Program-made: the position numbers and the translations under genes
Part shown: piece after piece, positions 3,986 to 34,767 of the stretch
How positions within the stretch are numbered: the first letter of the stretch is position 1
Layout of the letters: each line of letters begins with the position of its first letter
The notes under the pieces: model-generated
What the model saw: the letters and a program-made list of their open reading frames with translations, nothing else
Databases searched by the model: none
What the model was told of the DNA's origin: nothing
Assembly: GCA_001769505.1 (NCBI GenBank)
Contig: MEOF01000038.1
Coordinates: 1 to 34,767, forward strand
Length of the DNA stretch: 34,767 bases
Direction of reading: 5' to 3'
Origin: Bacteroidetes bacterium GWF2_33_38
GTDB lineage: Bacteria; Bacteroidota; Bacteroidia; Bacteroidales; GWF2-33-38

Positions 3986-6739
3986 ATGTTTAAATATAAA
4001 ATATCAATTTTAATTGTCGTAATATTCTATTTTTTTAATAATGTTAATGCTTCATTAAAAAGCGATACAATTGACGTAATTCACTATACCATAAATCTTG
4101 ATTTTGCCAATAATATTCCATACACAATTTCGGGAAATACAGAATTGGAAACAATTTCTAAAATGCAAGGATTGAATTATGTTTGTTTAGATTTATTGAA
4201 ACTTACGGTTGATTCTGTCTTTATAAACGAGGTTTCAGCAACTTTTTCGCACAACGACACTCTTTTGAAAATTATTCTGCCATTAAGTTTTAATTTAAAT
4301 GATACATTTAAGATTCATGTTTATTATCAAGGATATCCTGCGATTGACCCATCTGGCTGGGGTGGTTTTTATTTTAGTTCAGGATATTCGTTTAATCTTG
4401 GTGTTGGCTTTGAAGATAATCCACACAATTATGGTCGAGTTTGGTATCCGTGTATCGACGATTTTATTGATCGAGCTAGTTACGATTTTATAATAAAAAC
4501 ATCTTCTGAACAAAAAGCAATTTGCGGAGGAGAACTAATATCAACAATTATAAACCCTGATAGCACAAAAACCTTTCATTGGCAATTAAACGAAGAAATT
4601 CCAACATATTTATCGTCGGTTGCTGTAGGCGATTATAAACTAGTTTGCGACACATTTCACGGAATAAATGGAGCGATTCCGATTAATTTATATGTTGCTC
4701 CAACAGATAGCGTAAAAGCGATAAATTCATTTATTAATTTAAAAACTATCCTTTCGGCTTATGAAAATTCGTTTGGTCCATATATGTGGAGCCGAGTTGG
4801 ATACGTTTCTGTTCCGTTCAACGGTGGAGCAATGGAACATGCTACTAACATTGCTTATCCCGCCTCTTCGATTGATGGAGGATTGGGCAGCGAATATTTA
4901 TATGCACACGAACTTGCACATCATTGGTTTGGGAATTTAATTACATGTAATGCCGCTGAAGATATGTGGATTAATGAAGGATGGGCTTCATTTTGCGAAT
5001 TTATATATATAGAAAATTTGTACGGAGTTGAAGAAGCAAAAAATTATATCAGAAACGAGCATGCTTATAATTTAAGATTACTTCATCATGAAGATAATGG
5101 ATTTAGAGCTGTTTATGGAATCCCGCACGAATACACTTATAGTACGACTGTTTACGAAAAAGGAGCGGGAGTTGCTCATTCGTTGCGTGGGTATTTGGGC
5201 GATAGCCTGTTCTTTTCGTCTGTAAAACAATTACTTGCCGAATTTGCTTATCAGCCAATCTCTAGTTTTCAAATGCGAGATAAATTTTCTGAATATTCGG
5301 GAATTGACTTAACTGCATTTTTCGACACGTGGGTATTTTCACCTGGCTTTCCTCACTTTTCGATTGATTCGTTTGCCGTTGCTCAAAACGGTGCATTATA
5401 CAATGTTTCAGTTTATATGAAACAAAAAAATCGTGGTGGGTATCATTTTGCTGATAACAACAGAGTTGAACTCACTTTTATGGACGAAAATTGGAATACA
5501 ACGACACGCATTGTCGAATTCTCAGGCGAAAGAGGAGGCGAAACATTTTCAATTTCTTTTGACCCTAAAATCGTGATGGTTGATATCGATGAAAAACTTT
5601 GTGATGCAACAGTTGATAATTACAAAATCATTAAATCGATAGGAGATTACGATTTCGACAAAACTTATTTTGTCGCAAGTGTTTCTAATATTGCCGACTC
5701 AGCTTTTCTGAGAGTTGAGCACAATTGGGTTGCTCCTGACAACTTTAAAGAACCGATAGACGGATTAATTCTTTCAGACACAAGATATTGGAAAGTCGAT
5801 GGAATTATACCCGAAACTTTCGACGCAAAAGGAAAGTTTTACTACAATAAACTTTCAAATACAAATGGATATTTGGACAATACTCTTATAACAAATTCGA
5901 TTGATTCTTTGGTTCTTTTATATCGCCCAAGCTCATCTTTTGATTGGAGTATATGCCCTTTTACCAAAGCAGGAAATGCGTATTATGGGTATTTAATTGC
6001 AGACTCGTTGTTACTTGGTGAATACACTTTTGGAATTTACGATTACGATAGATTATCTGCAATTATGAAAACTAATTACGATTGCAATCAAACCGCAACA
6101 ATAAGTTCACAAGTATCGGGAGGAATTCCTCCATATTCGTTTAGTTGGAGCGATTCTCTTGCTCAATCAACCAACTCGATTAATGTTGAAAACGCTGATT
6201 ATTATACAGTAACCATTTCCGATTCAAATAACGATACCATTATAGTGTCAAAGATTGTTGATGTTCCAACTGTTCTAGAAGTTTCTTCAATAATCTCGGG
6301 AAATCCGGAAGAATGCAGTGGTGCGATTGAATTGATAATCTCTGGAGGTTTTAAACCTTACAGCATTAATTGGAATAATTCAATAAATGTTCAGAATACG
6401 TTTGTTGCTGAAGATTTATGTAGTGGATTTTATCCTTACACCATTACAGACAACAATGCTTGTGGGGTTTCCGACACTATTATTCAAAGTATAAACGAAA
6501 TCGGAGTTTCTACTAGGATTTATCCAAATCCTGCAAACAATCAATTAATAATCGACAATAATCAATCGACAATAATCAATCAACAATTAACAATTTATAA
6601 TCTTACTGGGCAAAGAATAAGACAAATAAATTCAGCTAATAATAAGCCGATTTTGCTTGATGTTAGTTCGTTCCCGAATGGAATTTATATTTTACGGTTA
6701 AATAATGCTTTTTCGTACAAATTTAGCATTGTACATTAG
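3986..6739 (+). CDS. Exported M1 family metallopeptidase with type IX sorting domain
   Basis: A 917-residue secreted zinc aminopeptidase-like enzyme. After a signal peptide (to about residue 22) comes the M1 fold: GGAMEH at 280-285 (exopeptidase motif), HELAHH at 308-313 (zinc ligands H308 and H312, catalytic E309), E331 in NEGW exactly 18 residues after H312 (third ligand), and Y390 as the likely transition-state tyrosine. All key residues are present, so it should be active. After the enzyme come two SprB-like repeats (about residues 695-840; SGGIPPYSFSW and SGGFKPYSINW). The last ~75 residues are a type A sorting domain (STRIYPNPANNQLIID ... GQRIRQI ... FPNGIYILRL), sending the protein through the type IX system to the cell surface or medium. 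The sorting domain DNA contains short tandem repeats at 6540-6600. No terminator is obvious downstream. Confidence 0.92.
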   Translation: MFKYKISILIVVIFYFFNNVNASLKSDTIDVIHYTINLDFANNIPYTISGNTELETISKMQGLNYVCLDLLKLTVDSVFINEVSATFSHNDTLLKIILPLSFNLNDTFKIHVYYQGYPAIDPSGWGGFYFSSGYSFNLGVGFEDNPHNYGRVWYPCIDDFIDRASYDFIIKTSSEQKAICGGELISTIINPDSTKTFHWQLNEEIPTYLSSVAVGDYKLVCDTFHGINGAIPINLYVAPTDSVKAINSFINLKTILSAYENSFGPYMWSRVGYVSVPFNGGAMEHATNIAYPASSIDGGLGSEYLYAHELAHHWFGNLITCNAAEDMWINEGWASFCEFIYIENLYGVEEAKNYIRNEHAYNLRLLHHEDNGFRAVYGIPHEYTYSTTVYEKGAGVAHSLRGYLGDSLFFSSVKQLLAEFAYQPISSFQMRDKFSEYSGIDLTAFFDTWVFSPGFPHFSIDSFAVAQNGALYNVSVYMKQKNRGGYHFADNNRVELTFMDENWNTTTRIVEFSGERGGETFSISFDPKIVMVDIDEKLCDATVDNYKIIKSIGDYDFDKTYFVASVSNIADSAFLRVEHNWVAPDNFKEPIDGLILSDTRYWKVDGIIPETFDAKGKFYYNKLSNTNGYLDNTLITNSIDSLVLLYRPSSSFDWSICPFTKAGNAYYGYLIADSLLLGEYTFGIYDYDRLSAIMKTNYDCNQTATISSQVSGGIPPYSFSWSDSLAQSTNSINVENADYYTVTISDSNNDTIIVSKIVDVPTVLEVSSIISGNPEECSGAIELIISGGFKPYSINWNNSINVQNTFVAEDLCSGFYPYTITDNNACGVSDTIIQSINEIGVSTRIYPNPANNQLIIDNNQSTIINQQLTIYNLTGQRIRQINSANNKPILLDVSSFPNGIYILRLNNAFSYKFSIVH

Positions 6740-28042: not shown

Positions 28043-28191
28043 GATTTCGTTTTTGTTAAAATATCAATCTATTTTCCTTGAAAAAAATACGTAAACAACT
28101 AAAAATCAAATATATTTTATAAATTTTTTCAAGAATTAGTTTAAATTTGTTCTTTTAAGCTATATTTACAAGCATATTGAAACATTGTACC
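28043..28191. other. Leader and promoter region of the giant SprB-like gene
   Basis: Very AT-rich. A TATATTTA box at 28161-28168, one base from TAnnTTTG, lies 23 nt upstream of the first ATG and is the best promoter candidate. An inverted repeat CTTGAAAAAAAT (28077-28088) and ATTTTTTCAAG (28123-28133) lies further upstream; it may be incidental. Confidence 0.35.
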
Positions 28192-31100
28192 ATGATAATT
28201 CGTACAAAAGCAGAATTTATTAAAATGAACTTAAACTTACTGAATATGAATGCGTTCAGAACAATTATATCCATAGCCATAATTTTTATTTTTACTGCTT
28301 CTTCTATTGCTCAAGAAAGATTTTGGGTAAATGGTAGCGGAAATTGGAACGACCAGTCACACTGGTCAATACAAAGTGGAGGGGTCGGCGATGCATCTAT
28401 CCCTACAAAATTAAACGATGTAATTTTCGACGAAAACTCTTTTTTTTCTGATGGCAATGTTGTTGATTTCGAAACCAATATTGAATGCAAATCCTTTGTT
28501 TGGAACTCAAGAAATAATTATTTGCTTTCATCGGTAGAGAATAGCCTTTCGATTTTTGGAAAAAAATTCTATTCTGAATCAAATACTTTTGCCGAGTTTT
28601 TTGGAACAATTGCATTTAAAAATATTTCAGATGAACTACGCTTTTCAGTTGGAGGAACAATATCTGGTTCGATTCTTTTCGAAAATTGCAATTCTATTTC
28701 GATTGACAAAAATTTAACCGTATACGGGTATATTCAAAATTTAAACTCCACAATCAATAATAATTCCACAATTCAATGTAAAACATATTATACCGACACC
28801 GAAAATGATTTTAATATCTCAGCCTCCCAAGTGATTAATTCCACTGAGCTAGTTAATAACTCTTCAGATAGAGCCGTTTTTTCAATATCTTTATTATCAA
28901 CAACTCCATCTTGCCCAGGTTTGGATAACGGAACAATTACAATTGACATTTCGGGTAGTCCCACGTATCCAGTTATTCTTCGATTATATCATGCTACTTT
29001 ATGTCCTTTTGCTACCCCTTGCGTTCTTGATACGCTTGATGCAGTTGATTTTCCGCACACAATTACAGGAGTTGAAGGTTCTGCCACTGGATATTCGGTA
29101 CGGGTAACTGATGGCGATGCCAGTTCAAAAACTATTAACAACATTGGAGTAGTTAACCAAAGCCCAATGGAGATTAATCAAGATTTGATGGTTGAGCCTC
29201 TTTGCTCTGGAAACTCAAATGGGAAAATTTATTTGATTGACATTGGTAATGCAACATACCCTGTTAATTACGTATGGACAGGAGGAACAACTGGAGTTGC
29301 TGACATTGGTGATTCGGTAAAAATCGAAAATATTCCGTCGGGAAATTATTTTGTAACAATTGTTGATGATAATGGATGTGAAACCGAATTTGAATATAAT
29401 CTCGGAGAACCAATTGTACTTACTGCCTCAATCTCGTCAGCAAACATAACATGTAACGGAGATAACGACGGAACTGCTTCTGCTAGCGGAACAGGAGGAA
29501 TAACACCATATACTTACGAATGGTCTCCCGGCGGAGATATTACCCAAAATATATCAGGCTTATCGGCCGGAACGTATTACGTAACTGTTTTCGATCAAAA
29601 TAATTGTCAAGCAGTAGATTCTGTTGATGTTATTGAACCTGATGCTATTTCGTTACTAATGTCAAAAACCGATGAAACTTGCGGTGGAGCTTGCGATGGA
29701 ACAGCAACTGCAACCCCAAGCGGAGGAACAACTCCATATTCTTGGTTATGGGGCGGAGGACAAGCAACACAAACAATTTCCAGTTTATGTGAAAATACGT
29801 ATAATGTTACAGTTAGCGATGCTAATGGTTGCGATGTAAATTCAAGTATAGATATTGATGCTCCTGCAAGTGTTGTAATTAATATTACTTCACAAACAAA
29901 TATTCGATGTTATGGTGAAACCAATGGAGCTATTAATATTACAGCCTCTGGAGGAACTCCCGGATATACATATGATTGGGGCAGTGGTGTTACCGATGAA
30001 GATAGAATTAATTTAACTGCCGGGATTTACACCGTAACGATTTATGATTCACATAGTTGTTCCGAAAGTTTACCAATAACTATCACACAACCCGATTCCC
30101 TAATTGTTTCAACTGCGGGAACTGATCCAACTTGTAACAATGGTGCAAATGGCGAAATTACAGCTACCCCAACAGGGGGAACGTCTCCTTTTACGTATTC
30201 ATGGAGTTGTACAGGTCAAACAAGTCAAACAATTACAGGACTTTCTGCTGGTGCTTGTACGGTAATCGTTACCGACGATAGCCTTTGTACCGCAACAGAA
30301 ACAGAAATGTTAGACAATCCACCTGCTCTAAACATTGTTGTTTCAAAAACTCCTGTTACTTGTAATGGCGACTGTGATGGAACTGCTACTTTAGCACCAA
30401 GTGGAGGAACAAGCCCTTATACTTACGAATGGGACGATTTGCAAACAGCCCAAATGGCTACGGGTTTATGTGTAGGGCTTCACTCATATACCGTTACCGA
30501 TAATAATGGTGCCGGATGTTCTACCACAGGTTCTGTAAATATTTTAGGACCAACTGCAATCTCTGTCAATATAACATCAGCCGATGTTTCGTGTTTTGGG
30601 GATTGTGATGGAACAGCAACAGCTGTTGCTTCGGGAGGAAATGGAGGTTTTTCCTACATATGGTGCAACGGACAAACTCTTCAAACAGCAACAGGACTGT
30701 GTGCCGGAACTTGCGACGTAACCGCTACCGATATTTTGGGCTGCGAAGGAAATGCAACCGCTACCATAAACGAACCCGATGAAATTGTCATAACCGAAAC
30801 CATTACGAATGTTTCATGTGCAGGCGATACGGATGGCGAAATATCCATTAGTATGACAGGAGGAAGCACTCCTTATACCTATTTTTGGTACACAATTTCT
30901 GGAGGAACAGGGATTCTTCCCTTCAATCAAAATCAAACAGGGTTGAGCGAGGGAACCTTCGTGGTTAATGTCGAAGATGCTTCTGGTTGTATCGCCAAAG
31001 ATACGTTTGAAGTTTCTCATAACTCATCCTTGCCTCCTGCTACCGTTGATGTAACCGATGTTCTTTGTAACGGTGAAAGCACTGGTTCTATTAATGTAAC

Positions 31101-34100
31101 ATTAATAGGTGCTACTAGCCCTACGTATAGCTGGTTGCCTGGTGGCGAAACCACACAAGATTTGAATAATATTCCTGATGGAAACTACTGTGTTCATATA
31201 GAGGATAACGGTTGTGCATTCGACACCTGCCTGATTGTTGCAGAGCCTATTGCATTATCGCTGGTAACTACACCGACAAATCCAGGCTGTAGTGGAATAT
31301 GCGACGGCTCTATTGTTGCATCTCCATCAGGCGGAGTTACTCCATATTCTTACGATTGGAGTCCTAATGGACCACCATATACAGGAGATGGCTCTAATAC
31401 ATATTCTGATTTGTGCGACGGAACATACAACGTAACGGTAAGTGACGTTAACGGTTGTGAAATCACAGGTTCAGAAACCTTGGTCGAGCCGGGGGGAATG
31501 AGTTTTAATCCGCTTGTTAGCGACCCTCTTTGTATGGGGTCAAGCGATGGTTCAATCGAACTAAATGTTTCGGGAGGAATTACTCCTAGAACCTATATTT
31601 GGTCTCCTGATGGTGAAACTACTGAAGATATTTCAGGAAAACCTGCAGGAAACTATTGCGTAACCGTAACTGATGCAGGAGGTTGTCCAAAAGATACTTG
31701 CATTACATTAACTGACCCAGCAGGAATGGATGTTTCTGTCGGAACTCCATCGGCTTTCTTAATTGATGCTTCAACCGAAATTGAAGTTTGTTTCACAGCA
31801 ACACACACCTACGTTTCTGATTTAGGATATTATTTAATTGCTCCTGATGGTACAACGCTGGAGTTATCTAAAGCACCTGTTACCGCTTGTAATTCAGATC
31901 ATAATGTTGAAGATTTATGCTTCTCGACTACTGAAGTAACGCCTTTAAATGTTTGCAATACCTCATTACCAACTCCGTTAACAGGAAACTTTGCTTCATC
32001 AAACTCATGGAATATTTTCTATGGAATGGAACCGGGTCAAGGAAATTGGGCTGTTCAAATTTATGATTGTTATGGAGCAGATATCGGTTTTTTAACACAC
32101 GCAACCATGAGATTTACCGGAAACACAGTAAACGGGTCTGTTACGTATTTTTACGATTCGGGAGTTATCGCATCTAATATAAACGATAATTCATGCGATG
32201 CTCTTTTGGCTTCCATTTTTAAAGCTCCGGTAAATTTTCAAGTCAGTTGTTTTGGCGATTGCGATGCTACCATTTTTGCAAATACTACGAATGGTGTTGC
32301 CCCATATACATACGAGTGGGACGATGCATTATCAAGTACAAACGATACGCTGTATAATTTGTGTGTCGGTATTTACAATGTTACCGTTACCGATGACAAT
32401 GGTTGTCAAGGAACTTCTGTAGCAACTATTACCGAACCTCTTCCGCTAACTTCTGGAATTAGTTCGACCATCGAAATTTGCTCCGGTCTTTGCGACGGAA
32501 CTGCAACCGTAAATCCTTCGGGCGGAACTCCTCCATATTCAATTTTGTGGAACGATAATCAAACTACAACCACCGCAACCGGATTATGTTCAGGAGTCTA
32601 TACGGTTACCATTACCGATTCACGGTTGTGTACATTCGATACAACCATAACCATTGGTGTAAACAATGCTATTGTTGTAACCGAAACAAAAGTTAATCCT
32701 ACCTGTTATTACGATACTGATGGCTCGGTTACACTTAATGTTTCAGGGGGAACAACACCATATAGTATTGAATGGTGGAATGGAAATACGTCTAATTCGG
32801 CAAGTGGTTTGTCTGGAGGTAGCTATTGTTATACTGTAACAGATGATAATGGCTGTTTTATAGAAAATTGTGCTGTTCTTACAGCTCCCGATACAATACG
32901 TTTTAACGCAACGGTATCTGAACTTGAATGTTATGGCGATAATGACGGACAAATAAGTATATTGGTTACTGGAGGAATAGGAATTCCTACTTATACATGG
33001 AATCCGAATGTTTCGGTAACGAATACGGCGTCAAGTTTGGGTGGAGGAACTTATGAGTTTATTTACACTGATGGAAACGGTTGTACAAAAGATACTATTA
33101 TAATACTAAATGAACCAAGCGAAATTACATTTGATGTTACGCTACAATTCCAAACTTGTCCAAGTACGTGCGATGGTTATGCAGAAATTGGAAATATTTC
33201 AGGAGGAAATTCCCCATACAATATTGAATGGGAAAATGGTGAATCGGGCTTTTCGGCAATTGCCTTGTGCGTTGGCGATACAATTGTCCATGTCGAAGAC
33301 GTTAATGGATGTTTTGTTGATAGCACAATAACAACTACATCGCCAACCGAATTAATTATTACAGAAACCATTATTGATGCATCTTGCGGCGATTCAAACG
33401 GAGAAATTCATGTTGTAGTTTCGGGAGGAGTTTCTCCTTATTATTATACATGGAGTTCGGGAGGATCTGGAGATGGAACACCAGATTATATAAATTTAGA
33501 TGCTGATAACTATACGCTTACGCTTACAGATGATTATGGTTGCGTAAATCAAGAATCATATTCGGTTAGTAATCTGGGGGGACCAACAGTTACAATAGAA
33601 AATCAACAAGCTCCTTCTTGTGATGGTGTTTGTGATGGAGTAGTTACGATTTCTATTTCAGGTGGGGTTACTCCATACGATATTCAATGGTCAAATTTTG
33701 ATTCTGACTTAATTGCGGAAGATTTATGCGATGGCGTTATAAGCGTTGAGGTTACCGGAGACGATGGATGTATAGGAACCGAATCGGTTAATCTTGTTGC
33801 TCCTATTGCTCTTGCTCTTTCTTTTTCAAAATCAGATTTGTCTTGTTATCAAAGTGGAGATGGAAGAGATACCGTTTTTGTTATTGGAGGAACTCCTCCT
33901 TATACGTATAGTTGGAGCAATGGGAATAGCTCAGATATTGCTACCGAACTAGACACCGGACAAGTATGTGTAACAGTTACTGATTTTAATGGATGTCTGG
34001 CTATTGCATGTGATGCAATTTCTCAGCCAACAGAATTAATTGCCTCTATTACAGCACAAACCGATGCGACTTGTTTTGGTGGAAATGATGGTAGTTTAAC

Positions 34101-34767
34101 GGTTACCGTAAGTGGTGGAATACCAAACTACAACTATGCTTGGTCTGAAAGTACTATCGTTAACAATAGCCCTCTTACAACAAACACAATTAACAATTTA
34201 ATTGCAGACAATTACGATGTAACTGTGTCTGATGACAATGGTTGTCAAGATATTGCAACAGCAACTATAACAGAAGGAAGTGAAATTATTATTTCTGGAG
34301 TTGTAACTAATGCAAATTGCGGAAGTTCTGATGGTTCCATAACGATCTCGATTGTTGGAGGTTCTTCTCCATACACGACAAATTGGAGTCCTATTGTTGG
34401 TTCTGGAACAGGAACAACATACCCAAATTTGTTAGCTGGACCATATACGGTAACTGTTGAAGATGTTGATGGTTGCACAAATGACGAAACTTTTAATGTA
34501 AGCGAAAACGGCGGACCGACCATAACAGTTGAAAATATATCAAATGTAAGTTGTAATGGTTTATGCGATGGCGAAGCGACAATTTCGGCAACAGGCGGCA
34601 CAACACCATATACCATAGAATGGAGTTCATCAGCCAATACAGGAACAACCGAATCAAATTTATGTGCAAATACATATACCGTGAATGTAGAAGGAGCAAA
34701 CGGATGTCAAAGTTCAGAAGTAATAGAAATTACTGCGCCTGACGAAATATCCTTAAGTTTTACAAGT
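28192..34767 (+). CDS. Giant SprB-repeat surface protein (3' end outside window)
   Basis: An open frame of 2192 codons runs off the right edge. A signal peptide ends near residue 41 (IISIAIIFIFTASSIAQ); starts at 28192, 28225 or 28246 are possible, the last giving the shortest signal. Residues 44-60 (FWVNGSGNWNDQSHWS) are the module seen at the N-terminus of many type IX-secreted proteins. From about residue 334, 22 SprB-type repeats of about 75 residues follow, each like CxGxxDGxxxxxxxGG, PYxYxW, then LxAGxYxVTVxDxNGC. Between repeats 11 and 12, residues 1182-1343 are unlike the rest and match a proprotein-convertase P-domain (YVSDLGYYLIAPDGT ... GNWAVQIYDCYGADIGFL). SprB is the mobile gliding adhesin of Flavobacterium; this is probably a secreted adhesin, with the sorting domain expected beyond the window. 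Confidence 0.9.
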   Translation, partial: MIIRTKAEFIKMNLNLLNMNAFRTIISIAIIFIFTASSIAQERFWVNGSGNWNDQSHWSIQSGGVGDASIPTKLNDVIFDENSFFSDGNVVDFETNIECKSFVWNSRNNYLLSSVENSLSIFGKKFYSESNTFAEFFGTIAFKNISDELRFSVGGTISGSILFENCNSISIDKNLTVYGYIQNLNSTINNNSTIQCKTYYTDTENDFNISASQVINSTELVNNSSDRAVFSISLLSTTPSCPGLDNGTITIDISGSPTYPVILRLYHATLCPFATPCVLDTLDAVDFPHTITGVEGSATGYSVRVTDGDASSKTINNIGVVNQSPMEINQDLMVEPLCSGNSNGKIYLIDIGNATYPVNYVWTGGTTGVADIGDSVKIENIPSGNYFVTIVDDNGCETEFEYNLGEPIVLTASISSANITCNGDNDGTASASGTGGITPYTYEWSPGGDITQNISGLSAGTYYVTVFDQNNCQAVDSVDVIEPDAISLLMSKTDETCGGACDGTATATPSGGTTPYSWLWGGGQATQTISSLCENTYNVTVSDANGCDVNSSIDIDAPASVVINITSQTNIRCYGETNGAINITASGGTPGYTYDWGSGVTDEDRINLTAGIYTVTIYDSHSCSESLPITITQPDSLIVSTAGTDPTCNNGANGEITATPTGGTSPFTYSWSCTGQTSQTITGLSAGACTVIVTDDSLCTATETEMLDNPPALNIVVSKTPVTCNGDCDGTATLAPSGGTSPYTYEWDDLQTAQMATGLCVGLHSYTVTDNNGAGCSTTGSVNILGPTAISVNITSADVSCFGDCDGTATAVASGGNGGFSYIWCNGQTLQTATGLCAGTCDVTATDILGCEGNATATINEPDEIVITETITNVSCAGDTDGEISISMTGGSTPYTYFWYTISGGTGILPFNQNQTGLSEGTFVVNVEDASGCIAKDTFEVSHNSSLPPATVDVTDVLCNGESTGSINVTLIGATSPTYSWLPGGETTQDLNNIPDGNYCVHIEDNGCAFDTCLIVAEPIALSLVTTPTNPGCSGICDGSIVASPSGGVTPYSYDWSPNGPPYTGDGSNTYSDLCDGTYNVTVSDVNGCEITGSETLVEPGGMSFNPLVSDPLCMGSSDGSIELNVSGGITPRTYIWSPDGETTEDISGKPAGNYCVTVTDAGGCPKDTCITLTDPAGMDVSVGTPSAFLIDASTEIEVCFTATHTYVSDLGYYLIAPDGTTLELSKAPVTACNSDHNVEDLCFSTTEVTPLNVCNTSLPTPLTGNFASSNSWNIFYGMEPGQGNWAVQIYDCYGADIGFLTHATMRFTGNTVNGSVTYFYDSGVIASNINDNSCDALLASIFKAPVNFQVSCFGDCDATIFANTTNGVAPYTYEWDDALSSTNDTLYNLCVGIYNVTVTDDNGCQGTSVATITEPLPLTSGISSTIEICSGLCDGTATVNPSGGTPPYSILWNDNQTTTTATGLCSGVYTVTITDSRLCTFDTTITIGVNNAIVVTETKVNPTCYYDTDGSVTLNVSGGTTPYSIEWWNGNTSNSASGLSGGSYCYTVTDDNGCFIENCAVLTAPDTIRFNATVSELECYGDNDGQISILVTGGIGIPTYTWNPNVSVTNTASSLGGGTYEFIYTDGNGCTKDTIIILNEPSEITFDVTLQFQTCPSTCDGYAEIGNISGGNSPYNIEWENGESGFSAIALCVGDTIVHVEDVNGCFVDSTITTTSPTELIITETIIDASCGDSNGEIHVVVSGGVSPYYYTWSSGGSGDGTPDYINLDADNYTLTLTDDYGCVNQESYSVSNLGGPTVTIENQQAPSCDGVCDGVVTISISGGVTPYDIQWSNFDSDLIAEDLCDGVISVEVTGDDGCIGTESVNLVAPIALALSFSKSDLSCYQSGDGRDTVFVIGGTPPYTYSWSNGNSSDIATELDTGQVCVTVTDFNGCLAIACDAISQPTELIASITAQTDATCFGGNDGSLTVTVSGGIPNYNYAWSESTIVNNSPLTTNTINNLIADNYDVTVSDDNGCQDIATATITEGSEIIISGVVTNANCGSSDGSITISIVGGSSPYTTNWSPIVGSGTGTTYPNLLAGPYTVTVEDVDGCTNDETFNVSENGGPTITVENISNVSCNGLCDGEATISATGGTTPYTIEWSSSANTGTTESNLCANTYTVNVEGANGCQSSEVIEITAPDEISLSFTS

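Follow-up and report, generated by a model that had tools for sequence, protein, structure and literature searches.

The last open reading frame (ORF) of a bacterial contig raises the question of how the cysteines of tandem SprB repeats are paired, within each repeat or from one repeat to the next. The stretch analysed, called the window throughout, consists of 34,767 nucleotides of Bacteroidetes bacterium GWF2_33_38 (contig MEOF01000038.1, positions 1 to 34,767 of the forward strand). The ORF occupies positions 28177-34767 on the forward strand (2197 codons) and is open at the 3' end of the window. The contig seems to end there as well, since a search of the genome returns the same open frame with 2203 codons. 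The ORF matches PF13573, the SprB repeat of Pfam, over 20 stretches (E-value 1.7e-165; 536.7 bits against a cut-off of 28) and contains 22 full repeats in tandem, of the class of about 75 residues. The first is matched from residue 340, at nucleotide 29194, the start given by a preliminary description of this DNA. That description had two baseline cysteines closing within every repeat. The analysis points instead, with high probability, to a filament of tandem SprB repeats joined by inter-repeat disulfides and carrying optional intra-repeat staples.

Repeats were gathered from three sources. A genus search gave the own genome as the only member; 36 stretches around its SprB matches yielded 546 repeats, those of the window included. 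An even sample of 148 genomes of the phylum contained PF13573 matches in 36, the own genome included, and 40 stretches were taken from 24 of the 35 others, chosen among the best-scoring rows. A further 78 named loci came from the best 80 hits ranked by likeness to repeat 3 of the window. Together, the 40 stretches and 78 loci provided 2191 repeats in 118 loci, the repeats of the window being excluded; they are called the relatives below. All repeats were aligned to one model of 72 columns, in which the baseline cysteines are C8 and C58. Both were scored with a slack of two columns.

Within the same repeat, C8 and C58 are independent. Both are present in 2315 repeats, one of the two in 87 and 110, and neither in 4, giving an odds ratio (OR) of 0.97. 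Between C8 of one repeat and C58 of the next (offset +1), the association is overwhelming: 2206 junctions have both, 4 and 48 have one, and 32 have neither (OR 368, p = 1.2e-45). Among offsets from -4 to +4, this one is by far the strongest. The next in strength, +4 (OR 26) and -2 (OR 7.9), were rejected, as their signal comes mainly from two periodic proteins (L113 and L118); without these two the values fall to 6.1 and 2.2, while offset +1 keeps an OR of 215. The reverse pairing of C58 with C8 of the next repeat (offset -1) was likewise rejected as the main pair (OR 2.6). The joint losses at offset +1 arise in 17 loci. When repeats were permuted within proteins, the observed concordance at offset +1 (613 of 670) was reached in none of 2000 shuffles, their mean being 565; the concordances at offsets 0 and -1 were not above the shuffles. 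A mean-field coupling analysis, made with a custom script on 2135 adjacent repeat pairs, agrees. C8 with C58 of the next repeat ranks 3 (z 13.9) among 9870 column pairs, C58 with C8 of the next repeat ranks 223, and C8 with C58 of the same repeat ranks 4734. The proposal of a within-repeat baseline bond is thus contradicted.

A cysteine in the linker is found at 43 of the 48 junctions that have C58 in the second repeat and lack C8 in the first, 39 of these linkers having their first cysteine at columns 70-73. Linker cysteines are far less common where C8 is present (61 of 2206 junctions). By eye, the other five of the 48 comprise an NNC at the repeat end, two shifted cysteines, one divergent repeat of CDGG type and one masked case. 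Two loci (L155 and L064) have arrays devoid of C8, in which the linker cysteine appears to pair with C58 of the next repeat. Overall, 2278 of the 2290 scored junctions fit the inter-repeat rule.

The ends of arrays were compared with their interiors in runs of at least two repeats with at least 100 residues of flank. First repeats are without C58 in 31 of 143 cases and inner repeats in 36 of 2181 (p = 2e-21); C8 is retained in 128 of 131 first repeats. Conversely, C8 is missing from 10 of 104 last repeats, compared with 76 of 2126 others (p = 0.006). In Flavobacterium soyae (L221), the first repeat has C8 alone and the next 26 have both cysteines. In an Aquimarina protein (L183), a repeat with only C58 is followed by one with only C8, four times over; three such junctions were scored.

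Detection by a model that rewards cysteines could have biased these counts. This cause was rejected, as the coupling persists when cysteines are masked in both model and targets: such a run, with a looser threshold, recovered 2718 repeats, with an OR of 119 at offset +1, 1.17 at offset 0 and 5.7 at offset -2.

Structure models were built for two groups of three repeats from alignments of candidate triplets, of which 100 of 146 were retained after thinning for redundancy (101 rows each). The AlphaFold2 (AF2) models reached a predicted local distance difference test (pLDDT) score of 97.2 for repeats 5-7 and 94.8 for repeats 9-11. All six repeats are predicted to be β-sandwiches of six strands, consistent with the SprB repeat family. 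The couplings between strands A and G are parallel (3-64, 6-66, 9-71) and those between strands F and G antiparallel (47-65, 49-63, 53-59). From the parallel A-G couplings we infer that the end of the domain that bears C8 faces the next repeat, and the end that bears C58 the previous one. Weak inter-repeat couplings not involving cysteine were also found (G10-G22', G46-D54', P69-N56' and L72-A60', the prime denoting the next repeat), with z between 2.0 and 2.2.

The cysteines of the window can now be laid out repeat by repeat. Besides the baseline, three sets of extra cysteines are listed: set 1 at columns 12 and 44, set 2 at columns 49 and 63, and set 3 as given in the preliminary description.

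28177-34767, forward strand: SprB-repeat ORF, 2197 codons, no stop before the window end
28894-29172, forward strand: divergent repeat 0, extent by eye; residues about 240-332, of which 242-265 matched
29173-29421, forward strand: repeat 1; C8, C58
29422-29649, forward strand: repeat 2; C8, C58
29650-29877, forward strand: repeat 3; C8, C58, set 1
29878-30102, forward strand: repeat 4; C8, C58
30103-30330, forward strand: repeat 5; C8, C58, set 3
30331-30561, forward strand: repeat 6; C8, C58, set 1
30562-30786, forward strand: repeat 7; C8, C58, sets 1 and 3
30787-31035, forward strand: repeat 8; C8, C58
31036-31257, forward strand: repeat 9; C8, C58, set 2
31258-31500, forward strand: repeat 10; C8, C58, set 1
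31501-31728, forward strand: repeat 11; C8, C58, set 2
31729-32217, forward strand: non-SprB insert interrupting the array; 166 residues (hidden Markov model limits), 6 cysteines
32218-32448, forward strand: repeat 12; C8, C58, set 1 (CDA)
32449-32673, forward strand: repeat 13; C8, C58, set 1
32674-32898, forward strand: repeat 14; C8, C58, set 2
32899-33126, forward strand: repeat 15; C8, C58
33127-33354, forward strand: repeat 16; C8, C58, set 1
33355-33588, forward strand: repeat 17; C8, C58
33589-33813, forward strand: repeat 18; C8, C58, set 1
33814-34041, forward strand: repeat 19; C8, C58, set 2
34042-34287, forward strand: repeat 20; C8, C58
34288-34521, forward strand: repeat 21; C8, C58
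34522-34749, forward strand: repeat 22; C8, C58, set 1

A MAFFT alignment of the 22 repeats confirmed all the cysteine occurrences given in the preliminary description. Both baseline cysteines are present in all 22 repeats; set 1 occurs in repeats 3, 6, 7, 10, 12, 13, 16, 18 and 22, with neither half in the others; set 2 is confined to repeats 9, 11, 14 and 19, and set 3 to repeats 5 and 7. Given the counts, perfect matching would arise by chance with probabilities of 2.0e-6, 1.4e-4 and 4.3e-3 for sets 1, 2 and 3, respectively. Outside this array, the baseline cysteines are uncoupled within the repeat, and divergent repeat 0 holds only the first: C8 is present (TTPSC, residue 246) and C58 absent (VTDGDASSK), the combination that the inter-repeat rule predicts for the start of an array. 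The insert has a match to P_proprotein, the P-domain of proprotein convertases, that lies below the Pfam cut-off; its last cysteine is 11 positions upstream of repeat 12.

Among the relatives, sets 1 and 2 are almost perfectly paired. Set 1 is complete in 419 of the 2191 repeats and absent from 1665, with 4 and 4 discordant and 99 gapped; set 2 is complete in 30 and absent from 2092, with 1 discordant and 68 gapped. The frequency of set 1 is inflated in the named loci, since repeat 3, the query used for ranking, is itself a set-1 repeat: 407 such repeats are in the loci from the best 80 hits and 12 in the 40 stretches. The pairing test should be unaffected by this bias. Of the eight discordant set-1 repeats, two have a cysteine in the loop after the tryptophan in place of C12, three belong to divergent domains and one is partly masked; the other two (in L150 and L178) stand as exceptions. 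In the own genome, set 1 is complete in 68 of 546 repeats and absent from 411, with 17 having C12 only and 50 gapped; set 2 is complete in 9 and absent from 520, with 17 gapped. Many of the 17 repeats with C12 only are divergent domains of CDGgSV type, in which this cysteine may stand in for C8.

The two halves of a set are also gained or lost together. In 1161 disjoint pairs of nearest relatives, the set-1 cysteines switched together 179 times and singly 6 times, and those of set 2 together 23 times and singly once. C8 and C58 of a single repeat changed 117 times singly; joint switches went the same way 4 times and opposite ways 3 times. In the coupling analysis, set 1 ranks 1 (z 39.6) and set 2 ranks 6 (z 13.8). 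The set-2 cysteines of repeats 9 and 11 occupy facing positions of the F-G hairpin, by the DSSP strand limits of the AF2 models. Sets 1 and 2 are likely intra-repeat disulfides, as judged from sequence covariation. Of the three intra-repeat staples put forward at first, these two stand on co-occurrence, joint switching and coupling; set 3, known from two repeats of this protein, cannot be generalised, as no cysteine at column 48 and no second case was found among the 2191 repeats of the relatives.

Cysteines outside the C8, C58, set-1 and set-2 columns are rare, except at column 50. A rare matched pair at columns 17 and 39 was observed in 7 repeats of 6 loci (L152, L159, L161, L173, L207 and L215). 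Column 50, with consensus valine in strand F, has a lone cysteine in 82 repeats of the relatives and in 5 of the own genome (L041 and L046). No partner column was found for it among the repeats of the relatives, and it is perhaps a buried free thiol. This column serves as a control: cysteines are not paired by default.

Two further SprB repeats are located in an M1 peptidase of the window (3986-6739), which has a Por_Secre_tail match.

6062-6277, forward strand: SprB repeat a of the M1 peptidase, with no other detected upstream; C8 present, C58 absent
6281-6505, forward strand: SprB repeat b of the M1 peptidase, with no further one detected downstream; set 1 and C58 present, C8 absent

They were first described as following the rule only in part. 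They do break a within-repeat rule, and are no failure of the inter-repeat one, with C8 in the first repeat and C58 in the second.

In the arrangement proposed, C8 at the A-B corner of one repeat would bond to C58 in the F-G turn of the next, a linker cysteine replacing C8 as the partner in some proteins. Within repeats, optional staples would be added. Set 1 would connect the loop between strands A and B with that between E and F, and set 2 would span the F-G hairpin; less common pairs (17/39, for example) would be of this kind too, and set 3 probably belongs with them as a further intra-repeat disulfide. A covalent path would then run from strand A of repeat i through the disulfide to strand G of repeat i+1, and through the linker to strand A of repeat i+2; two such paths would interleave. 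By arithmetic on the 72-column repeat, two repeats would contribute about 26 residues to each path: 8 in strand A, 15 between C58 and the end of strand G, and about 3 in the linker. As two repeats contain about 150 residues, an oxidised array would stretch little even if its domains gave way. It would act as a load-bearing, nearly inextensible cable, in which the extra staples lock local loops.

Several observations weigh against this arrangement. There is a weak excess of C58 followed by C8 in the next repeat (OR 2.6, p = 0.02). Of 2421 junctions, 131 were unscorable because of gaps, and 12 of the 2290 scored disagree with the rule; some of the 12 seem due to truncation or to slight shifts of the alignment, and at least one (L150) looks real. 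In the cysteine-blind run, 39 of 2197 junctions disagree; some of these are alignment slips, including the two from repeats 6 and 16 of the window, whose cysteines are plainly present. C58 is kept in 112 of the 143 first repeats and C8 in 94 of the 104 last ones; these terminal cysteines might pair with flanking domains or with divergent repeats that escaped the model, of which repeat 0 of the window is an example. Echoes of the same column between neighbours are high (W31-W31', z 13.8; V50-V50', z 7.7), and as W31-W31' rivals C8-C58' (13.9), the relatedness of neighbours was not fully removed. The disulfides are deduced from covariation. Finally, the genome has no Pfam match to DSBA, DsbB, VKOR or Thioredoxin_4, each of which is matched in control genomes.

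Covariation is also blind to the identity of the chain, a further point against the arrangement. The C8-C58 bonds might thus connect parallel chains, one repeat on, and glue filaments together. The best structural match of the three-repeat model, the grappling hook protein A (GhpA), would fit this, as GhpA is an oligomeric appendage. However, the partner belongs to the immediate neighbour, with which an interface within the chain exists already, and the weak non-cysteine couplings mark this same interface. Bonds between chains are accordingly regarded as very improbable. So is the original version, in which the baseline cysteines close within the repeat and three alternative staples do likewise. 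It accounts for the presence of both cysteines in all 22 repeats of the window and for the near-perfect pairing of sets 1 and 2 in the 2191 other repeats, but explains neither why C8 and C58 are independent within a repeat nor why first repeats lose C58 rather than C8; moreover, the parallel A-G couplings would place C8 and C58 at opposite ends of the domain. Mere co-inheritance of duplicated repeat subtypes with fixed cysteines and no bond, which the relatedness of repeats by duplication, the periodic losses in L113 and L118 and the same-column echoes could suggest, can practically be dismissed, as nearest relatives switch both halves of a set jointly, joint losses at offset +1 arose in 17 loci, the two partners belong to separate repeats, a linker cysteine usually makes up for the loss of C8, and the 82 column-50 cysteines of the relatives have no partner column.

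The inter-repeat arrangement was compared with known systems. The SprB repeat family is named after the gliding adhesin SprB of Flavobacterium johnsoniae, and the curated model PF13573 places the window protein in the same family. Orthology to F. johnsoniae SprB is not claimed from the sequence at hand; the 3' side of the ORF lies beyond the window. So does the C-terminus of the product, which is likely exported by the type IX secretion system, the ground being that the genome carries SprA, the translocon of this system. No Pfam match to a carrier family of sprF/porP type was found in any of the 10 ORFs scanned out of the 19 others of at least 150 residues in the window. A phmmer search of the ORF against PDB chains gave no match at E-values up to 0.1. 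The structural match is GhpA from Aureispira sp. CCB-QB1 (PDB 9flw, 9flp and others), with Z 11.3, 209 aligned residues, 24% identity and a root-mean-square deviation of 6.4; unrelated Ig-like chains reach Z 8 to 10. GhpA has weak sequence similarity to SprB repeats (profile E-values 4e-6 and 0.003), and in the sequence stretch compared by eye its cysteines 1301, 1328, 1385 and 1413 resemble C58, C8, C58 and C8.

The extenders of RTX adhesins are also tandem β-sandwiches of giant surface adhesins, with junctions stiffened by calcium in the linker according to PMC7493085; in SprB arrays, a covalent cysteine pair between neighbours is proposed instead. Experiments have demonstrated disulfides between SprF and GldK and between PorG and GldK, components of gliding and protein export in F. 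johnsoniae (PMC12635249). There, the partners are separate proteins linked on the side of the periplasm, whereas SprB arrays would be bonded between adjacent repeats of the same adhesin. The literature open to the search, with few subscription journals among it, yielded no mention of disulfides inside SprB repeats or between them, and neither did the passages of PMC12635249, PMC10994853, PMC8078820, PMC7698502 and PMC7073777 that were available.

The 546 repeats of the own genome (3.93 Mb), counted in the stretches taken, are distributed over 43 open frames (L041-L076 and the window), and several contigs begin or end within repeat arrays. Hundreds of apparently paired cysteines are present in its surface proteins, yet the genome is devoid of matches to the oxidant families named above. 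Across Bacteroidota, it is reasonably likely that such arrays form domain-to-domain disulfide chains, with two interleaved bypasses for force and switchable staples that tune local stability. The rule raises the questions of which periplasmic oxidant acts and of how a disulfide-chained array passes through the export pore. It would also correct annotations in which the two conserved cysteines are shown bonded to each other inside the same domain. No statement on how arrays of SprB type hold tension was found in the part of the literature open to the search. In this phylum, the proteins of gliding and of the cell surface are very large and have to withstand traction, and disulfides between neighbouring repeats would, if the rule is true, be a simple answer.

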